Below, in pieces: positions 9,514 to 37,055 of a stretch of DNA of 64,000 nucleotides. How positions within the stretch are numbered: the first letter of the stretch is position 1; each line of letters starts with the position of its first letter. The notes beneath the pieces were generated by a model. It worked only from the letters and a program-made list of their open reading frames with translations. It did not search any database and was not told the origin of the DNA. A program made the position numbers and the translations under genes. Source of the DNA: an uncultured Bacteroidales bacterium (GTDB lineage: Bacteria > Bacteroidota > Bacteroidia > Bacteroidales > UBA932); assembly GCA_900316045.1 (NCBI GenBank), contig ONBM01000015.1, forward strand, positions 1 to 64,000. The letters are read 5' to 3'.

Positions 9514-10068
9514 GTTCCCCCAGCACGAATGTACTCTAACGGGTGAAAGTCCACAACCCACCCTGATAGTGGGACGGTTACAGCCAAAGGCGGGGTGTCC
9601 CTATCGAGGGGAATCTGAAGGAAGCCAGCGGCTAACGGTTGACCCGATGAACAAGAACTTGGTATAAGGCTGGAAGGCAGGGGCAATGCTGCAAATGAAG
9701 TATATGCCCGGAAATTATCCGAACTGCTGACAGTAAACCAAGCGGGTATAAACGGGAAAGAGTACGTCCATAACTGGGGAGGTCTCGCAGACGAGACTTC
9801 GGAAAAAAGAAGTCGAGCAGTAACAACGAACTGCGGGAGGTCATCCGAGCTATTGGAAGGTGTCGAACGGATGGAGCGGAGGGGACACCCGTTTGTGCGC
9901 TATGCGGACGACAGCCTATACTTCAGCAAGAGCAGACGAAGGGCAGAGAGTGTGTGCGAGGGTTCACGTAGTTCATTGAGAAGAAACTTCCCTTGAAGGT
10001 GAGCCGAGAGAAGACGGAAGTGGGCTATGCGCAGGGGATGAAATTCCTCGGCAACTCATTCTATAAGA

Positions 10069-10484: not shown

Positions 10485-11013
10485 ATTGGGCGCATATCTA
10501 TGGAAACAGCAGCATGGGATATTAGGCCAATGCGGAAGGCATTATGCACCACGCCGCAGGAAACGACAAACTCCCCCGAGCCGGTTATCCATGCCTTATG
10601 GACTGCTCTGTTTCTTCCAGGATCCGTGACGCACTCGGGGGCGTTCATCCAAAGGCACTCACGTACTCACGATTATATTCTTAAACACAATATTTTCGTC
10701 TTGGTCTATCAAAAGACAAATGCGTCTCTGCTTTGATGGGATTCAAGCGTAGGTTGGAACGTCATTTTACGAATTGCGGTCGTTTCGGAGTCTTGTCCAA
10801 TTTCAGCTACGAATTGTTTGCAATTGCGGGACTGCGCCAGATGAGAACAGAAACCGCCGATGTCCATCGCAACGCCATCTCGCCCCAGCCAGTTTCGATT
10901 ACACTCTCACGAGTCCGTTTAGACTATATATTTCGGGATTATCTACAAGGTACTCACTAGACTAGCCGCAATATTTTCATTATGAATATATTACATTTGC
11001 GGCCAAGAGTATG

Positions 11014-11089
11014 CTGTCAAAAAATCGCAAGGTACTTTCGAAATGCCCTTTCTGCGCACATCTGCTGATGGTTTCAAAAGTATCCTGTC
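11014..11089 (+). repeat. Orphan copy of the ~77-bp element that flanks a HUH transposase elsewhere
   Basis: It begins CTGTCAAAAAATCGCAAGG and ends TTTCAAAAGTATCCTGT. The same two ends, in the same order, occur at 29492-29567, and in reverse at 30670-30747, on either side of the transposase gene at 29653-30519. No transposase lies near this copy. A TACATTTG box lies just upstream at 10992-10999. Confidence 0.6.
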
Positions 11090-27579: not shown

Positions 27580-29049
27580 ATGAAATATGATGTCGTGATA
27601 ATTGGCGGCGGCGCATCTGGCCTGCTCGCAGCCCATGGGGCGAAAACCGCTTCTCCTGATGCCAAGGTGGTTATTTTGGAAAAGATGCCTCGCCCGGGAA
27701 GGAAGATTCTGTTCACGGGAAAGGGGCGCTGCAACTTCACGAATGTCAAGGATTGGAACGATTTCTCGACCCATATTCGCACGAACCCGAATTTCGTTAA
27801 GCCTTCCTATTACAATTTCACGCCTGACGACATGATAGATTTACTGGAGAGCAATGGTCTCGAGACGGTAGTGGAGAGGGGAGACAGGGCTTTCCCGTAT
27901 TCTCATAGGGCATCGGATGTTGTGGATACGCTTGTGCAACTGGTACTGAAAGATGGAGTGATGCTGCTCTCTGACCGTGAGGTAAAGGATGTCCTGAAAT
28001 TCGATGGCGGTTTCTCTGTACTTACATCAAGCGGGGAGCAATTCGATGCATCCAAACTTATAATATCAACCGGAGGCCTGTCATATCCGGGAACAGGATC
28101 GACAGGTGACGGTTACATGTTCGCAAAAAAGCTAGGACACAGCGTAACCCCAACTTTTCCTTCTCTCACTGCTCTTGTCCCTAGAGGATACAAGATCATT
28201 GAAAAACCAGATATGGAGATGCGCGGACACATTGACAGGGGACTGCCGATGACAGCCGCAGGGCAGGATCTCATGGGGGCGAAGCTTAAGAATATATCGC
28301 TGACTGTCTTCGTTGACGGTCAGCAGCAAGAGTCTGAGTTCGGAGACGTGGACTTCACTGATGGCGGCATAGAAGGGCCGATTGGTTTCCAGGTCAGCAG
28401 GCATTGCGTAAAGGCGATGATGAATGGGAGTAAGGTTTCCGTGTCATTGGACCTCAAGGCAGGAGTACCGCTTGAAGAACTCTCGGAGCGTATTCACTCT
28501 CTGTGGGCGGAAATTGAGAACGATCCGCGCTCAAAGGGATGGAAGGATGGCAGAGGATTGAATGGCAAAGAGATGTACAGGATATTGCTCGGAAAATTAA
28601 TGCCTTGGGAACTCATTCCTGGATTCCAGGCCTGGAATCCGTCGATATTGAGTTTCACGCAAAACGATACTCGTGCTTGCGGATCTCGCTCACGGGCATC
28701 TTATTTTTATCAGGCAAGACACAAGGGTGCTTTTCAGTCTCGGGATGGCAGAAGGCAGTCCAAATATCAGAAGCGTTCCTACAGCGTAGATCTTGACCTG
28801 CTTGCCAAGTGCCTGAAAGATTGGAAATTTGACATTGATGGCTACGTGGGGTATGAGCGCTGTGTCATTACTGCAGGTGGCGTTTCAACCGATGAGGTGT
28901 TTCCAAAGACAATGGAATCCAAGATTGCGCCTGGCCTGTACCTTTGTGGTGAAGTACTCGATATGGATTGCGACACCGGCGGCTACAATCTCCAATGCGC
29001 ATTCTCCACAGGCTACCTCGCCGGCCAGTCCGCCGCAAAAGCATTGTGA
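27580..29049 (+). CDS. HI0933-like (BaiN/RdsA-type) NAD(P)/FAD-dependent oxidoreductase
   Basis: A 489-residue cytosolic flavoprotein. The N-terminal Rossmann motif VVIIGGGASGLLAAHGA binds FAD. Family motifs follow: EKMPRPGRKILFTGKGRCNFTN, GGLSYPGTGSTGDGYMFAKKLGH, and the C-terminal GLYLCGEVLDMDCDTGGYNLQCAF. Family members reduce bile-acid intermediates or flavin-linked substrates; the actual substrate here is unknown. A TATATTTG box at 27551-27558 gives a short leader. The last codons and stop (GCATTGTGA) match the repeat unit that begins right after the gene, so the 71-bp array appears to have arisen from, or spread into, the gene end. Confidence 0.88.
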   Translation: MKYDVVIIGGGASGLLAAHGAKTASPDAKVVILEKMPRPGRKILFTGKGRCNFTNVKDWNDFSTHIRTNPNFVKPSYYNFTPDDMIDLLESNGLETVVERGDRAFPYSHRASDVVDTLVQLVLKDGVMLLSDREVKDVLKFDGGFSVLTSSGEQFDASKLIISTGGLSYPGTGSTGDGYMFAKKLGHSVTPTFPSLTALVPRGYKIIEKPDMEMRGHIDRGLPMTAAGQDLMGAKLKNISLTVFVDGQQQESEFGDVDFTDGGIEGPIGFQVSRHCVKAMMNGSKVSVSLDLKAGVPLEELSERIHSLWAEIENDPRSKGWKDGRGLNGKEMYRILLGKLMPWELIPGFQAWNPSILSFTQNDTRACGSRSRASYFYQARHKGAFQSRDGRRQSKYQKRSYSVDLDLLAKCLKDWKFDIDGYVGYERCVITAGGVSTDEVFPKTMESKIAPGLYLCGEVLDMDCDTGGYNLQCAFSTGYLAGQSAAKAL

Positions 29050-29050
29050 T

Positions 29051-29428
29051 CCATCGCGACCCTCCTCCGCAGGCTGCGACAAGGACAACATTGATGACCT
29101 TCCTACCCAACGCATTGTAACCCATCGCGACCCTCCTCCGCAGGCTGCGGCAAGGACAACATTGATGGCCTTCCTACCCAACGCTTTGTAACCCATCACG
29201 ACCCTCCTCCGCAGGCTGCGGCAAGGACAACATTGATTGCCTTCCTACCCAACGCATTGTAACCCATCACGACCCTCCTCCGCAGGCTGCGGCAAGGACA
29301 ACATTGATGGCCTTCCTACCCAACGCAGTGTAACCCATCACGACCCTCCTCCGCAGGCTGCGACAAGGACAACATTGATGGCCTTCCTACCCAACGCATT
29401 GTAACCCATCACGACCCTCCTCCGCAGG
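29051..29428 (+). repeat. 71-bp tandem repeat array
   Basis: Five full units start at 29051, 29122, 29193, 29264 and 29335, with a partial sixth at 29406. Each has CCCTCCTCCGCAGGCTGCGG (hairpin CCGCAG-G-CTGCGG in most copies) and an AACATTGATGGCCTTCC segment. Units differ by a few substitutions. There are no unique spacers, so it is not CRISPR. It lies between the HI0933-like gene and the HUH transposase gene. Confidence 0.9.
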
Positions 29429-29491
29429 GTACTTTCGGGTCCTTTTGTAACTTTCTCTCTGTAAATAAGTTGCCGAAGATAGGATGCGTAT

Positions 29492-29567
29492 CTTGTCAAA
29501 TTTTTACAAGGTACTTTTTTAATACGTCTCAGACTGCGACTTGTTCATGCTTTCTAAAGTATCCTGT
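29492..29567 (+). repeat. Left copy of the ~77-bp transposase-flanking element
   Basis: It starts CTTGTCAAATTTTTACAAGG (a hairpin-forming end) and ends CTTTCTAAAGTATCCTGT. It is the inverted counterpart of 30670-30747, and the transposase gene lies between them. Confidence 0.7.
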
Positions 29568-29642
29568 ATTGCGGATACGACCAGTTTCTATCCTGTATTG
29601 CGGATACGACCAGCTTCTATCCTGTATTTCGGATACGACCAG
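29560..29642 (+). repeat. Three 29-bp tandem repeats with a hairpin core
   Basis: Units start at 29560, 29589 and 29618 and read TATCCTGTATTGCGGATACG then ACCAGTTTC, with small changes. Each can fold on TATCC/GGATA. The array starts from the end of the ~77-bp element and ends 10 bp from the transposase stop codon. Confidence 0.8.
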
Positions 29643-29652
29643 CGCCTGCGAA

Positions 29653-30519
29653 TCACTTCCAGCCGCCGAACCGCTTGACGGTTTCAGAATCCAGTCCACA
29701 AATCCGACAGATTTGTTTTACGTCGGAGCCATATTTGTTTCTCAGAAGCCGGGCAAAAATACGCCTCATTGTCACGTCCATCTCGTCAAAGCCTTTTACT
29801 CCGTAATATTCAAAATCTTTATTCAGCTTCTCCATAAGCGTAGTATCATCGTACATCGCACGATTTTCGTTCATCTCATATCTGGCACTTTCTTGTTCCA
29901 CTTTCCAATTGCTAAGTTGCAAAAAAAACTCCACCGGGCTTGCGAATAGTTCTTCAACTTTCCGGCAATTGACGTAGGATTCTGGCAGAATGTAGCCGTT
30001 TGCGACCAAGTATTCGCTTGGCAAATCTACACAGGTTGACAAGTCGGACTTGATTTGTTTTCTGCTCATTTCCTCAATACGATACGGCTTTGCATCGAAA
30101 TTATTCCTGCGGAAATACAGCCGGCAGGTATTCCAAGGGTAAGTGTATGGGTCACAAATTCTTGCCTTAAGGCAATTCCGCAGAATGTATGCTACTTCTG
30201 TCTTGAACATTTCAGGGCTGGTGATCTCTACAAGAACAGGTTTGAGTCTGCGAAGAGGATGCGATGAGTTCTGGATGCATTTGCCGAGCCTTGTTTTCAA
30301 CTTGCAGAAGAATCGGATGGCTTCGGCTTTTTTCCCGGAAAGGAGAAAATGAAAATGATTGTTCATTAGAGTAAAGCAGAAGATAATGATGTTCATTCCC
30401 TGCAATGCTATTGGAATGCTATTCATGCCTTGCCTGAAATCTTCAACGGTTTTGAAGATCAGATTATCTGGCAGTTCATCCGAACAAAGATGCCAATATT
30501 TCCTAGATTCGTTTTCCAT
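29653..30519 (-). CDS. HUH (Y1) REP-associated-type transposase, copy 1
   Basis: A 288-residue IS200-like/RAYT-type single-strand DNA transposase. The HUH-type motif is NNHFHFLL with His55 and His57, and the catalytic Tyr is likely Tyr111 in VAYILRNCLKA. A C-terminal extension ends in a helix-turn-helix-like segment (LLRNKYGSDVKQICRICG) and the final RFGGWK. The start at 30519 (MENESRKYWHLC) aligns with the paralogue at 35793-36692; an open extension to 30558 is less likely. The gene is intact. It is bordered by inverted copies of a ~77-bp element and two tandem arrays, as expected for a transposase acting on palindromic repeats. Confidence 0.85.
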   Translation of the reverse strand: MENESRKYWHLCSDELPDNLIFKTVEDFRQGMNSIPIALQGMNIIIFCFTLMNNHFHFLLSGKKAEAIRFFCKLKTRLGKCIQNSSHPLRRLKPVLVEITSPEMFKTEVAYILRNCLKARICDPYTYPWNTCRLYFRRNNFDAKPYRIEEMSRKQIKSDLSTCVDLPSEYLVANGYILPESYVNCRKVEELFASPVEFFLQLSNWKVEQESARYEMNENRAMYDDTTLMEKLNKDFEYYGVKGFDEMDVTMRRIFARLLRNKYGSDVKQICRICGLDSETVKRFGGWK

Positions 30520-30669
30520 AGCCGGTGAATTATCATGGTGATTTCTTTCCCAACGCAAACTTACACAAAATGAGCATGTCGTATAAACATTTTCATAAAA
30601 TTTGATTCATTTTTTTCTGTTTTTTTAAGAAATTTCTGTTTTTATCAGTGCCCAATGAATTTTGCTGTT

Positions 30670-30747
30670 GACAGGATACTTTTGAAAGTGAGGCTGGAAC
30701 GTTGCTGGAGGCATATTCTAAAAGTACCTTGTCAAATTTTTGCAAGG
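30670..30747 (-). repeat. Right, inverted copy of the ~77-bp transposase-flanking element
   Basis: Reads, on the plus strand, ACAGGATACTTTTGAAAG and then AAAAGTACCTTG with the hairpin ACCTTG...CAAGGT (30725-30748). It is the reverse complement arrangement of 29492-29567 and 11014-11089. Confidence 0.7.
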
Positions 30748-30825
30748 TGCTATTTACTCTTTTTTGTAATATATTAATAATTAGCGAATTAGTTCCGAAC
30801 GAGAAAGTATCGTGCAGCTAAGTGC

Positions 30826-32529
30826 TTAGAAAGGTCCGGAGCCGAGCATTTCGTAGTCCTGGGAAGCCGAGGCGAGCGTATCCAGCGAGGCTGGGATGGA
30901 GCCTTCTTTTGAGATGTTGTCACTTGAGGCTGGGATGGCGCCTTCACCTGGGATGTTACCTGCGGCTGGGATGGAGCCTTCTTTTGAGATGTTGTCACTT
31001 GAGTCTGGGATGGCGCCTTCACCTGGGATGTTACCTGCGGCTGGGATGGAGCCTTCTTTTGGGATGTTGTCACTTGAGGCTGGGATGGCGCCTTCACCTG
31101 GGATGTTACCTGCGGCTGGGATGGTGATGGATGCTGGGGCGTACCATGCGGCGAACTGGCCGTCAGAGAGACCGCGCTGAGGCATGTCGAATATTATGAA
31201 TATGCCGCCGGGGCGTTTCACGAGCCATGCATCCTGCAGCGGCTGGCGGTAGCGGATGCGGACTTTGTAGCGGCGAACCTCTCCATTACGCATTTCGAGA
31301 TCGGTGCGGATCCAATGAATATTCTCCGGAGCAATGCGTATGCAGCTACGAGACAATCCTTTGTGCCGATGGCCTTCACCTACGTAAATTATGTTGCGTT
31401 CTATGTCTGTCGCTATCACGAATAGCGAGTCCTTGTGCCCGCCGATGTTCAGTCCCTTTCTCTGCCCGATGGTATAAAACTGCGCCCCATCGTGCCTGCC
31501 TACGACCTTCCCCCATGGATTGTCCACATATCGGGTTTTCTTCACGTGATGCTTTCCGCTACGATAGGTTTCTGTCTCAAAAGTCAGGGAATCGTAACTG
31601 ATCGGCTGCGAGAGCCGCATCAAGGTTTCATCGGAAAGTGCAGCAATCTTATCGGCGGAATATTCATTTGCCCTGCCCTTTACGTCCAAACGCACATTGT
31701 TGAAAGCTGCCCCGCCAGAATCCTCGGAAGAATATTCAGTTGTCATGAGCGGTTCCCCAGGCTCGGCAAGCAGCGATGCCAAAGTGTCGTGGCTGAACTT
31801 ATACTGCTCATTGTCAGAGTAGAAAGAATCGTAGACCTCCACTACATCTCCTTCACGAGGCAGAAGCTTCTGCTTCAGGAAAGTTGGCAGGTCCACTTTG
31901 CCGACGAAACATATTCCCTGAGAGTCTTTCTTGTCTGCCGACGGCAGGTCAGCTTCGTGCGCAAGACGTCGAACCTCTGGCTTCGTCAGGCCTCCTATAG
32001 GGAAAAGCGCAGTCGAAAGCTGTTCCTGGCTGAGCTGGCAGAGGAAATAGCTCTGATCCTTGTTCGGATCAATTCCTTCGAGCAACCTGGATTGTGGGAT
32101 GCCGTCAATGACGACAGGCCTGCCAGAAGCATCCAGCAGTGGAGCCTTGCGGCAATAGTGTCCCGTCGCAACCATGTCAGCACCCATTTTGCGAGCAGTC
32201 TCCCAGAAAGCATCGAACTTGATTTCCCTGTTGCAAAGCACGTCAGGGTTAGGAGTGCGTCCGGCGTGATATTCATTGAACATATACTCCACCACCTTTG
32301 CCCTGTATTCCTTGGAAAGGTCCACGAAATAGAAAGGAATGCCGATTTTCCGTGCCACCAGCTCTGCCACGTATCTATCCTCCTCCCATTCGCAGTCCCC
32401 GTGCAGAGTGGCGTCCGCATCGTGCCAGTTCTGCATGAACATGGCGAATACGTCGTACCCTTGCTGCTTCAGCAGCAGGGCAGCAACGCTGGAGTCCACG
32501 CCTCCTGACAGTCCTACGCATATTTTCAT
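30826..32529 (-). CDS. mnmA: tRNA 2-thiouridylase MnmA with insertion and repeat-built C-terminal tail
   Basis: It thiolates U34 of Lys, Glu and Gln tRNAs. The PP-loop GLSGGVDSSVAALLL, catalytic Cys99 (DVLCNREIKF) and Cys207 (DSQGICFVG), KDQSYFLCQL and FYTIGQRKGLNIGGH are all present. The protein is 567 residues, against about 360-380 usually. About 105 extra residues (232-338) separate two normally adjacent blocks. The canonical end QRGLSDGQFAAWY is followed by ~104 residues made of three 25-residue repeats (IPAAGNIPGEGAIPASSDN plus IxKEGS) and a short end. On the minus strand a TAACTTTG box (32544-32537) lies seven bases before the ATG. The catalytic core looks functional. Confidence 0.93.
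   Translation of the reverse strand: MKICVGLSGGVDSSVAALLLKQQGYDVFAMFMQNWHDADATLHGDCEWEEDRYVAELVARKIGIPFYFVDLSKEYRAKVVEYMFNEYHAGRTPNPDVLCNREIKFDAFWETARKMGADMVATGHYCRKAPLLDASGRPVVIDGIPQSRLLEGIDPNKDQSYFLCQLSQEQLSTALFPIGGLTKPEVRRLAHEADLPSADKKDSQGICFVGKVDLPTFLKQKLLPREGDVVEVYDSFYSDNEQYKFSHDTLASLLAEPGEPLMTTEYSSEDSGGAAFNNVRLDVKGRANEYSADKIAALSDETLMRLSQPISYDSLTFETETYRSGKHHVKKTRYVDNPWGKVVGRHDGAQFYTIGQRKGLNIGGHKDSLFVIATDIERNIIYVGEGHRHKGLSRSCIRIAPENIHWIRTDLEMRNGEVRRYKVRIRYRQPLQDAWLVKRPGGIFIIFDMPQRGLSDGQFAAWYAPASITIPAAGNIPGEGAIPASSDNIPKEGSIPAAGNIPGEGAIPDSSDNISKEGSIPAAGNIPGEGAIPASSDNISKEGSIPASLDTLASASQDYEMLGSGPF
30895..31119 (-). repeat. 75-bp tandem repeat inside the 3' end of mnmA
   Basis: Three units start at 30895, 30970 and 31045, and a fourth begins and decays at 31120. 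The period (75 bp) is a multiple of three, so the reading frame stays open and yields 25-residue repeats. The units are nearly identical, which points to recent expansion. Confidence 0.92.
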
Positions 32530-35792: not shown

Positions 35793-36692
35793 TCACATCC
35801 ACCCTCCGAAACGCCGGACAGTCGCTTCGTCTAAACCTATCAGCCTGCATACCTGTTTCACGTTCGAGCCATAAGCATTCCTCAGTATCGGCACGAATAT
35901 TCTTTTCATGGTATCGTCCATGTCATTGAAACCAGAAACACTATATTCCTTAAACTTGGGTTGAAGTTTTTCAAGCAATACAGTATCTTCGTACATGGCT
36001 TTGTCGACTGGCCCTCTATCCTGTTCTATTGATTTTTTCTCGGATGCCCATTCAAGCTGGGCCGCTTTCTGTTCGCTTTTCCAATCTTTCAGATACCAGA
36101 AAAGATTCAGTGCAGATCCGAACAAATGCTCAACGGTAGCTACTTGCACATAAGATTCTGGCCGGATTATTCCATTCGCAATTAGGTAGCCATCAGGGAG
36201 ATGCACCCTGGTCGACAATACATTCCGGATTTCCCAGCCGTTCATGTCTCCTATTCTTCTAAATGTGAACTTATTGATGCAATGTTTGAAATATATTCCT
36301 CCGGTGCTCCAAGGATAATTATAAGGATCATTCATCTTTGCGGCAACGCAGTTCCTCAAAATATATGCGACTTCATTTCTGAACATTTGTTCGTCTGTGA
36401 CTTCTATCAGCTTGAAATTTAAGCCTTTCAGTGGCGACTGAATTCTATGCTTTTTCGACAAGTGAGCAGCAAGACGTCTTTTGAATTTCGTGAAGAATTC
36501 TGTTGCTGCGTCAACCGTGCCACTTATCAAAAGATGTACATGATTATTCATCAGGATGAAGCAGTAGATGCAGATACCTGTCTCTTGCAGTGCGATAGGG
36601 ATGCTATTCATGCCGAACTTATAGTCATCCAACGTTTTGAAAATAATTTTGTTAGGAAGCTCCTGAGAGCATAAGTGCCAAATGTCTTTCAT
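35793..36692 (-). CDS. HUH (Y1) REP-associated-type transposase, copy 2
   Basis: A 299-residue paralogue of the transposase at 29653-30519. It has NNHVHLLI with His51 and His53, the probable catalytic Tyr110 in VAYILRNCVAA, and the same C-terminal block (ILRNAYGSNVKQVCRLIG and final RFGGWM). The start at 36692 (MKDIWHLCSQELP) aligns with copy 1; an extension to 36746 is open but not shared. It differs clearly from copy 1 throughout, so the two are old paralogues rather than a recent copy. Beside it lies a different inverted-repeat array (36812-37040), suggesting each protein has its own repeat family. Confidence 0.85.
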   Translation of the reverse strand: MKDIWHLCSQELPNKIIFKTLDDYKFGMNSIPIALQETGICIYCFILMNNHVHLLISGTVDAATEFFTKFKRRLAAHLSKKHRIQSPLKGLNFKLIEVTDEQMFRNEVAYILRNCVAAKMNDPYNYPWSTGGIYFKHCINKFTFRRIGDMNGWEIRNVLSTRVHLPDGYLIANGIIRPESYVQVATVEHLFGSALNLFWYLKDWKSEQKAAQLEWASEKKSIEQDRGPVDKAMYEDTVLLEKLQPKFKEYSVSGFNDMDDTMKRIFVPILRNAYGSNVKQVCRLIGLDEATVRRFGGWM

Positions 36693-36811: not shown

Positions 36812-37040
36812 GAGCGTGCGGTCATGGCTCCTGTGACGTTGATAACGAATATATTACAGAGGGTCGCTTCACGCTCGTATCGTCAGGCAGTTGAGCGTGC
36901 GGTCATGGCTCCTGTGACGTTGATAATGAATATATTGCTGAGGGGGTGCCTCACGCTCGTATCGTCAGACAGTGGAGCGTGAGGTCGTGGCTCCTGTGGC
37001 GTTGATAATGAATATGTTTCTGAGGGTCGTCTCACGCTCG
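36812..37040. repeat. ~81-bp inverted-repeat-bounded array
   Basis: Three units start at 36812, 36893 and 36975. Each begins GAGCGTG and ends about 65 bp later in CACGCTC, so each unit is a potential long hairpin; a GTATCGTCAGRCAGT linker joins units. Inside is GGCTCCTGTGACGTTGATAA. The array lies 120 bp upstream of transposase copy 2 and 15 bp from the nqrF terminator. Confidence 0.85.
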
Positions 37041-37055
37041 TCCGGAAATGATACG

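Follow-up and report, generated by a model that had tools for sequence, protein, structure and literature searches.

The RAYT locus

The window is the whole 64,000-nt stretch analysed here, from contig ONBM01000015.1 of an uncultured Bacteroidales bacterium; the genome to which it belongs (G000) is 2.75 Mb in 119 contigs. An intact open reading frame at positions 29653–30558 on the minus strand encodes a RAYT, a TnpA_REP-like transposase of the HUH/Y1 type. The ATG at position 30519 is the likely start, which gives a gene at positions 29653–30519 (minus strand) and a long-form protein of 288 aa. Read from this ATG, the catalytic residues fall at H55, H57 and Y111, followed by N115, and the intact Y1-type protein of the preliminary description, with HxH at residues 55/57 and Tyr111, is present in full. 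The gene lies between two inverted copies of a BIME-like element. The downstream copy is by sequence a full four-arm unit (29424–29567, plus strand), and the upstream copy is in the opposite orientation (30671–30815, minus strand). The transposase had been described as framed by a plus copy at 29492–29567 and a minus copy at 30670–30747, and both are found.

The same locus in the MAG JALCSU01 (G061) encodes a transposase that is 95% identical, with elements on both sides. A comparison of the two RAYT genes shows a dN/dS of 0.19 and a dS of 0.085, versus a dN/dS of 0.03–0.07 and a dS of 0.19–0.25 for the neighbouring genes. Judged from these sequences, the RAYT gene is under purifying selection. 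Its silent divergence is less than half that of the neighbouring genes, i.e., the silent sites are younger than their surroundings, and local recombination could account for this.

The regions next to the two elements also have repeats. A 71-bp tandem array (29038–29430) is located between a FAD-dependent gene and the downstream element, and the number of units differs in G061. An ORF for a MnmA-like tRNA thiouridylase (30826–32529, minus strand) adjoins the upstream element. It has an in-frame tandem repeat tail of GNIPGEGAIPASSDNISKEGSIPA units, and its ortholog has a related repeat tail.

Properties of the RAYT protein

The HxH motif, Tyr111, N115 and Y127 are invariant across 46 relatives of the window RAYT. 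The motifs in the window protein are NHFH and YILRNC, with a HuH-Y spacing of 54. The N of the class 2 signature Y---NP is invariant; the Pro is missing in the window RAYT (YILRNC) and is present in two relatives (L043 and L012). An AlphaFold2 model has a pLDDT of 75 with the HUH core well predicted. The best match of this model among solved structures is 4er8 (Foldseek 1.3e-4; Z 11.7 over 144 residues), the structure of E. coli TnpA_REP in complex with a REP hairpin; the next-best fold has a Z of 7.6. A Pfam scan of the protein shows no match at E ≤ 10, below the cut-off of Y1_Tnp (PF01797). The NCBIfam model NF047646 (REP_Tyr_transpos) matches 18 of 26 family members with a best E of 2.3e-12, and together with the TnpA_REP fold match this upholds the earlier identification as a RAYT. 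The window RAYT itself scores 18.5 bits against a curated cut-off of 80, which represents an annotation criterion and not a biological definition. The cut-off is no bar to RAYT membership because short RAYTs already known from Bacteroidota do not reach 80 either. The long-form RAYTs fall under the curated cut-offs, so that they are probably annotated as hypothetical proteins.

The C-terminal extension of about 150 aa is helical in the model, and the last approximately 40 aa may form a helix-turn-helix; a weak HTH_29 match (E 0.039) is found on a paralog. When the C-terminal domain is modelled alone the pLDDT is 78, but its structural matches are weak and none of them provides a convincing fold.

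The long form of approximately 290–310 aa has full-length matches only in two genomes of this genus among 149 genomes sampled from the order. The other genomes in this set match the RAYT core only (positions 1 to ~180), mostly in ORFs of 180–290 aa, and these are ordinary short RAYTs. In a tree, four short Bacteroidota RAYTs branch apart from the long form; this split is fully supported and carries a long-branch warning. The window protein is a RAYT that is catalytically intact by sequence, selected, vertically held, and of a genus-specific long form.

Structure of the element

Alignment of copies together with their flanks shows a unit of approximately 145–149 bp with four arms of about 11 nt in alternating orientation, of the GCAGGGTACTT / AAGTATCCTGC type. 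Every arm is a version of GCAGGGTACTT or its complement. The order is A5' arm, ~52 nt, A3' arm, a 9-nt A/T-rich linker, B5' arm, ~39 nt, and B3' arm. In the downstream copy (plus strand) arm A5' is GCAGGGTACTT (29424–29434), arm A3' is GTATCTTGT (29488–29496), arm B5' is ACAAGGTACTT (29506–29516) and arm B3' is AAAGTATCCTGT (29556–29567); A3' is the partner of B5' across a 9-nt AT loop. The element had been given as about 77 bp, but that stretch is the right half of the larger unit, and a second arm pair precedes it. The hairpin TTGTCAAATTTTTACAA, which had been taken for an end of the element, is actually the junction between the two arm pairs. A 29-bp unit is present three times in tandem at 29560–29646 (plus strand); it starts with arm B3' and has its own hairpin, GTATCC..GGATAC, inside. 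There are fewer of these tandem units in G061.

The length of the unit is nearly constant. It is 149 bp in nearly all of 24 copies from three genomes, cut as used, despite free variation in the interior. The element core, GGTACTT-N39-AAAGTATCC, has seven matches in G000 and all seven are exactly 55 bp, although gaps of 22–52 were permitted; a reversed control pattern has no match in G000. The four arm pairings are largely preserved (82–92% of cells paired), and the A3'–B5' hairpin has a recurrent mid-stem mismatch. Covariation between arms within the element family is weak because most arm positions are invariant or nearly so. Folding as single-stranded DNA is better than that of shuffled sequences in some copies only (z of -1.3 to -3.3). 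The foot of the element hairpin, where the arms read GTAYCCTG, has no conserved GT[AG]G tetranucleotide (GTAG or GTGG), and assignment as a canonical GTAG REP was rejected. The CGTC tag is also absent from the window element, and an Rfam search over the element shows no RNA family.

Copy number, sites and range

Copies were counted by BLAST with the longer unit together with exact-pattern matches. G000 has approximately 16 copies and G061 about 10; G063 (UBA1680) has two, and G062 (UBA7258) has none. The G000 copies are intergenic and are found in unrelated contexts. One of them, at 10945–11088 (plus strand), has an orthologous copy in G061. It had been described at 11014–11089, 18 kb away, as a third copy without a transposase; the copy and the lack of a transposase are as described, but it is no lone orphan, being one of the approximately 16. 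About 1.2 kb from this copy, at 9598–9768 (plus strand), is a match to a group II intron domain (RF02001). One G000 copy has been duplicated along with ~500 bp of its flank. In L109 and L113 (C67:10.6–11.1k and C46) the duplicated sequence upstream of the element is about 340 bp and holds a short ORF fragment.

Sixty further relatives, of which 36 belong to the same genus and 24 to other families of the order, have no 55-bp match in exact-pattern searches for the core. Four single pattern hits in these genomes have other lengths and are at the level expected by chance. The element is not common in relatives that lack the window RAYT: none of the 60 has it, and the two copies in G063 are in a genome where the closest RAYT seen is a 47% relative (L054). 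These two copies are at sites common to G061 and G000 and are consistent with relics. The element is limited to genomes that have a close relative of the window RAYT, G063 being seen with only the 47% relative. The range of the element follows the transposase clade, in agreement with the earlier proposal that the transposase has its own repeat family.

RAYT paralogs and their flanking repeats

G000 has 13 full-length RAYT paralogs and one fragment at a contig end, i.e., approximately 14 enzymes. Pairwise identities are mostly 20–58% where compared, and no paralog exceeds 52% identity to the window RAYT. RAYT family members at E ≤ 1e-3 are found in 32 of the 36 other genomes of the genus, typically about five per genome. 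A second RAYT in the window (35796–36692, minus strand) is 299 aa, 52% identical to the first, and 5 kb from it. It has its own, different repeats of the GAGCGTGAGG type upstream (about 36812–37041). The repeats of most other paralogs are local to their own locus. There are two exceptions: the paralog on C61 (L047) has in its flanks a CGTC-like CCTGAATCAAGTTCAGG palindrome with dispersed copies at over 20 places, and the paralog on C71 has a related array on C87.

The association of RAYTs with flanking repeats is general. Among 42 RAYT loci whose 600-bp flanks are complete, 22 share 20 nt or more of identical sequence between the two flanks, compared with 0.43% of 3000 random placements. Inverted repeats with arms of at least 12 nt are found in 15% of RAYT flanks, a figure slightly inflated by one locus with runs of N, versus 1% of control segments. 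A comparison between loci shows flank sequence matches in 6 of 1035 pairs, which have protein-identity ranks of 1, 2, 3, 5, 8 and 20; the top two are one locus in two genomes, and synteny contributes to these. The flank repeats follow RAYT phylogeny and are common only to close RAYT pairs.

The genus may hold a large, fast-diverging RAYT family in which each member has a private hairpin repeat. This would represent a within-genome radiation of enzyme-repeat pairs, a tentative reading for which the chances are somewhat short of even. If true, it departs from what has been described to date, a domesticated RAYT in single copy, and it suggests a host role that favours diversity.

Comparison with known systems

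RAYT (TnpA_REP) proteins with REP, BIME or REPIN repeats were reportedly described in E. coli and Pseudomonas by Nunvar in 2010, Bertels and Rainey in 2011, and Ton-Hoang in 2012. The window system has the same HUH/Y1 core fold with the Tyr and Asn, a gene that is held in place and flanked by its own inverted repeats, and dispersed intergenic copies with one repeat family per enzyme. It differs in the protein of ~290–310 aa with a C-terminal extension, the Y-motif without the usual Pro (YILRNC), the lack of a GTAG tag, the four-arm unit of ~149 bp, and approximately 14 paralogs in one genome in place of one to a few.

The preliminary description had regarded the system as a likely Bacteroidales counterpart of RAYTs and their repeats. 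Novelty in this respect is not supported: Bacteroidetes RAYTs flanked by atypical hairpins without GTAG have already been published as subclasses 2.4 and 2.6, as has the rule that each RAYT goes with a single repeat family (Quentin et al. 2018, PMC6006769). Proteins of these subclasses are ~180–195 aa with YIH[QN]NP or YIxNNP and a median HuH-Y spacing of 82–88 aa; subclass 2.6, which is group 5 of Bertels, has ~179 aa, NH[LIV]H, YIH[QN]NP and a spacing of ~82 (PMC6006769). The window system is similar to these in being from Bacteroidetes, in the GTAG-less atypical hairpins beside the gene, and in having copies elsewhere in the genome (2.6). It is different in its 288 aa, NHFH, YILRNC, spacing of 54, and lack of the YIHxNP pattern. 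Membership of the window RAYT in subclass 2.6 is ruled out by length, motifs and HuH-Y spacing. Subclass 2.1 (TIRYT) also has a long protein, a HuH-Y spacing of about 60 and flanking inverted repeats, and it has a C-terminal HTH-like extension to which the possible helix-turn-helix of the window RAYT may correspond. But it is ~238 aa and has no REP-like repeats nearby, whereas the repeats here are hairpin-forming, multicopy and paralog-specific. The dispersed CGTC-like palindrome of the C61 paralog is similar to the published CGTC-tagged palindromes (Di Nocera et al. 2013, PMC3733652), but the window element has neither a CGTC nor a GTAG tag.

The window system is of a known enzyme-plus-repeat type, in which it forms a new branch with unusual expansion; it is not a new type of system. 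As far as seen in the literature searched, four features are new: the long form itself, its occurrence in a single genus among the genomes sampled, how many paralogs there are, and a unit of ~149 bp with four arms. RAYTs have been described as single-copy, vertically inherited domesticated transposases with an unknown host function (PMC8049555), and class 2 subclasses have mean copy numbers of 1.0–3.9 per genome (PMC6006769). With up to ~14 divergent RAYTs of the long form in a genome, many of them next to a repeat of their own, the genus provides many independent enzyme-repeat pairs, and their sequences give access to the rules of recognition and to coevolution. A genus with this many RAYTs makes the question of why a RAYT is kept testable.

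Proposed mobility of the element

The reading that we favour, with a probability of about 0.78, is that the window system is a REPtron, i.e., a RAYT single-strand DNA transposase with a cognate BIME-like repeat that it would mobilise in trans. It brings together the cognate association of enzyme and element, selection on an intact enzyme, the near-constant unit length, dispersal without target duplication, and a gene that is fixed in place. Active mobility of the non-autonomous copies is what we infer from these. Points against this reading are that a clean empty site was not found, the weak arm covariation, single-strand folding that beats shuffled sequences in some copies only, the missing GTAG guide tetranucleotide, and the local repeats of most other paralogs. 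In such a mechanism the element would be single-stranded on the lagging strand, and neighbouring arms would fold into mismatched hairpins. Candidates are the A3'–B5' hairpin with its 9-nt AT loop, or the longer A5'–A3' and B5'–B3' pairs. The RAYT would bind the arm hairpins through its HUH core, nick beside them with Tyr111, and copy or excise the element, while the RAYT gene itself would stay put. The C-terminal part, ending in the possible helix-turn-helix, may add a DNA contact.

Inverted copies of an element on either side of a Y1-type gene are also what a complete IS200/IS605-type insertion sequence would show, where a unit of ~1.3 kb moves whole with its gene. This is very improbable. 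The gene is in the same genomic place in G061, its G000 paralogs are at most 52% identical with no identical copies among them, and the element copies outnumber the gene. The ends are inverted copies of one unit and not distinct left and right ends, and no set of sites with near-identical copies of the entire 1.3-kb unit was found. An improbable but somewhat better candidate is a MITE of a DDE transposase, with terminal repeats that flank the RAYT gene by chance. Arms B5' and B3' resemble terminal inverted repeats of ~12 bp, and dispersed intergenic copies of near-constant length would fit. However, the element has four alternating arms and not two, flank repeats track RAYT phylogeny across loci, and a scan of 13 copies shows no target-site duplication at any boundary (a weak 4-mer signal is present in 3 of the 13).

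A more serious alternative, which is still unlikely, is a domesticated RAYT that no longer moves its repeat. The copies would date from long ago or come from segmental duplication and slippage at the locus. The hairpins would now be terminators, mRNA stabilisers or DNA-structure sites. The sites are intergenic, one copy was duplicated along with its flank, and copies are mostly at orthologous sites in the two species: all of the ~10 recognised G061 copies have G000 counterparts. Against this, copies are in unrelated contexts, six in G000 have no recognised counterpart in G061, and the catalytic residues with an omega of 0.19 imply that the enzyme is still selected. As regards the enzyme itself, the domesticated RAYT is compatible with the REPtron reading.

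Empty sites were looked for by comparing the flanks of three G000 copies with those in related genomes, and no clean one was found. At C40:33k the region is rearranged in both G061 and G063. At C96 the left flank is without the element in both relatives, and a contig end truncates the right flank. The two element-free sites in the relatives differ from G000 by more than the element. At the C39/C14 site a 74-bp arm pair is present in G061 and missing in G000. This deletion of a tandem unit is bounded by a short direct repeat, as the domesticated alternative would have it; slippage or excision would each be sufficient to produce it.
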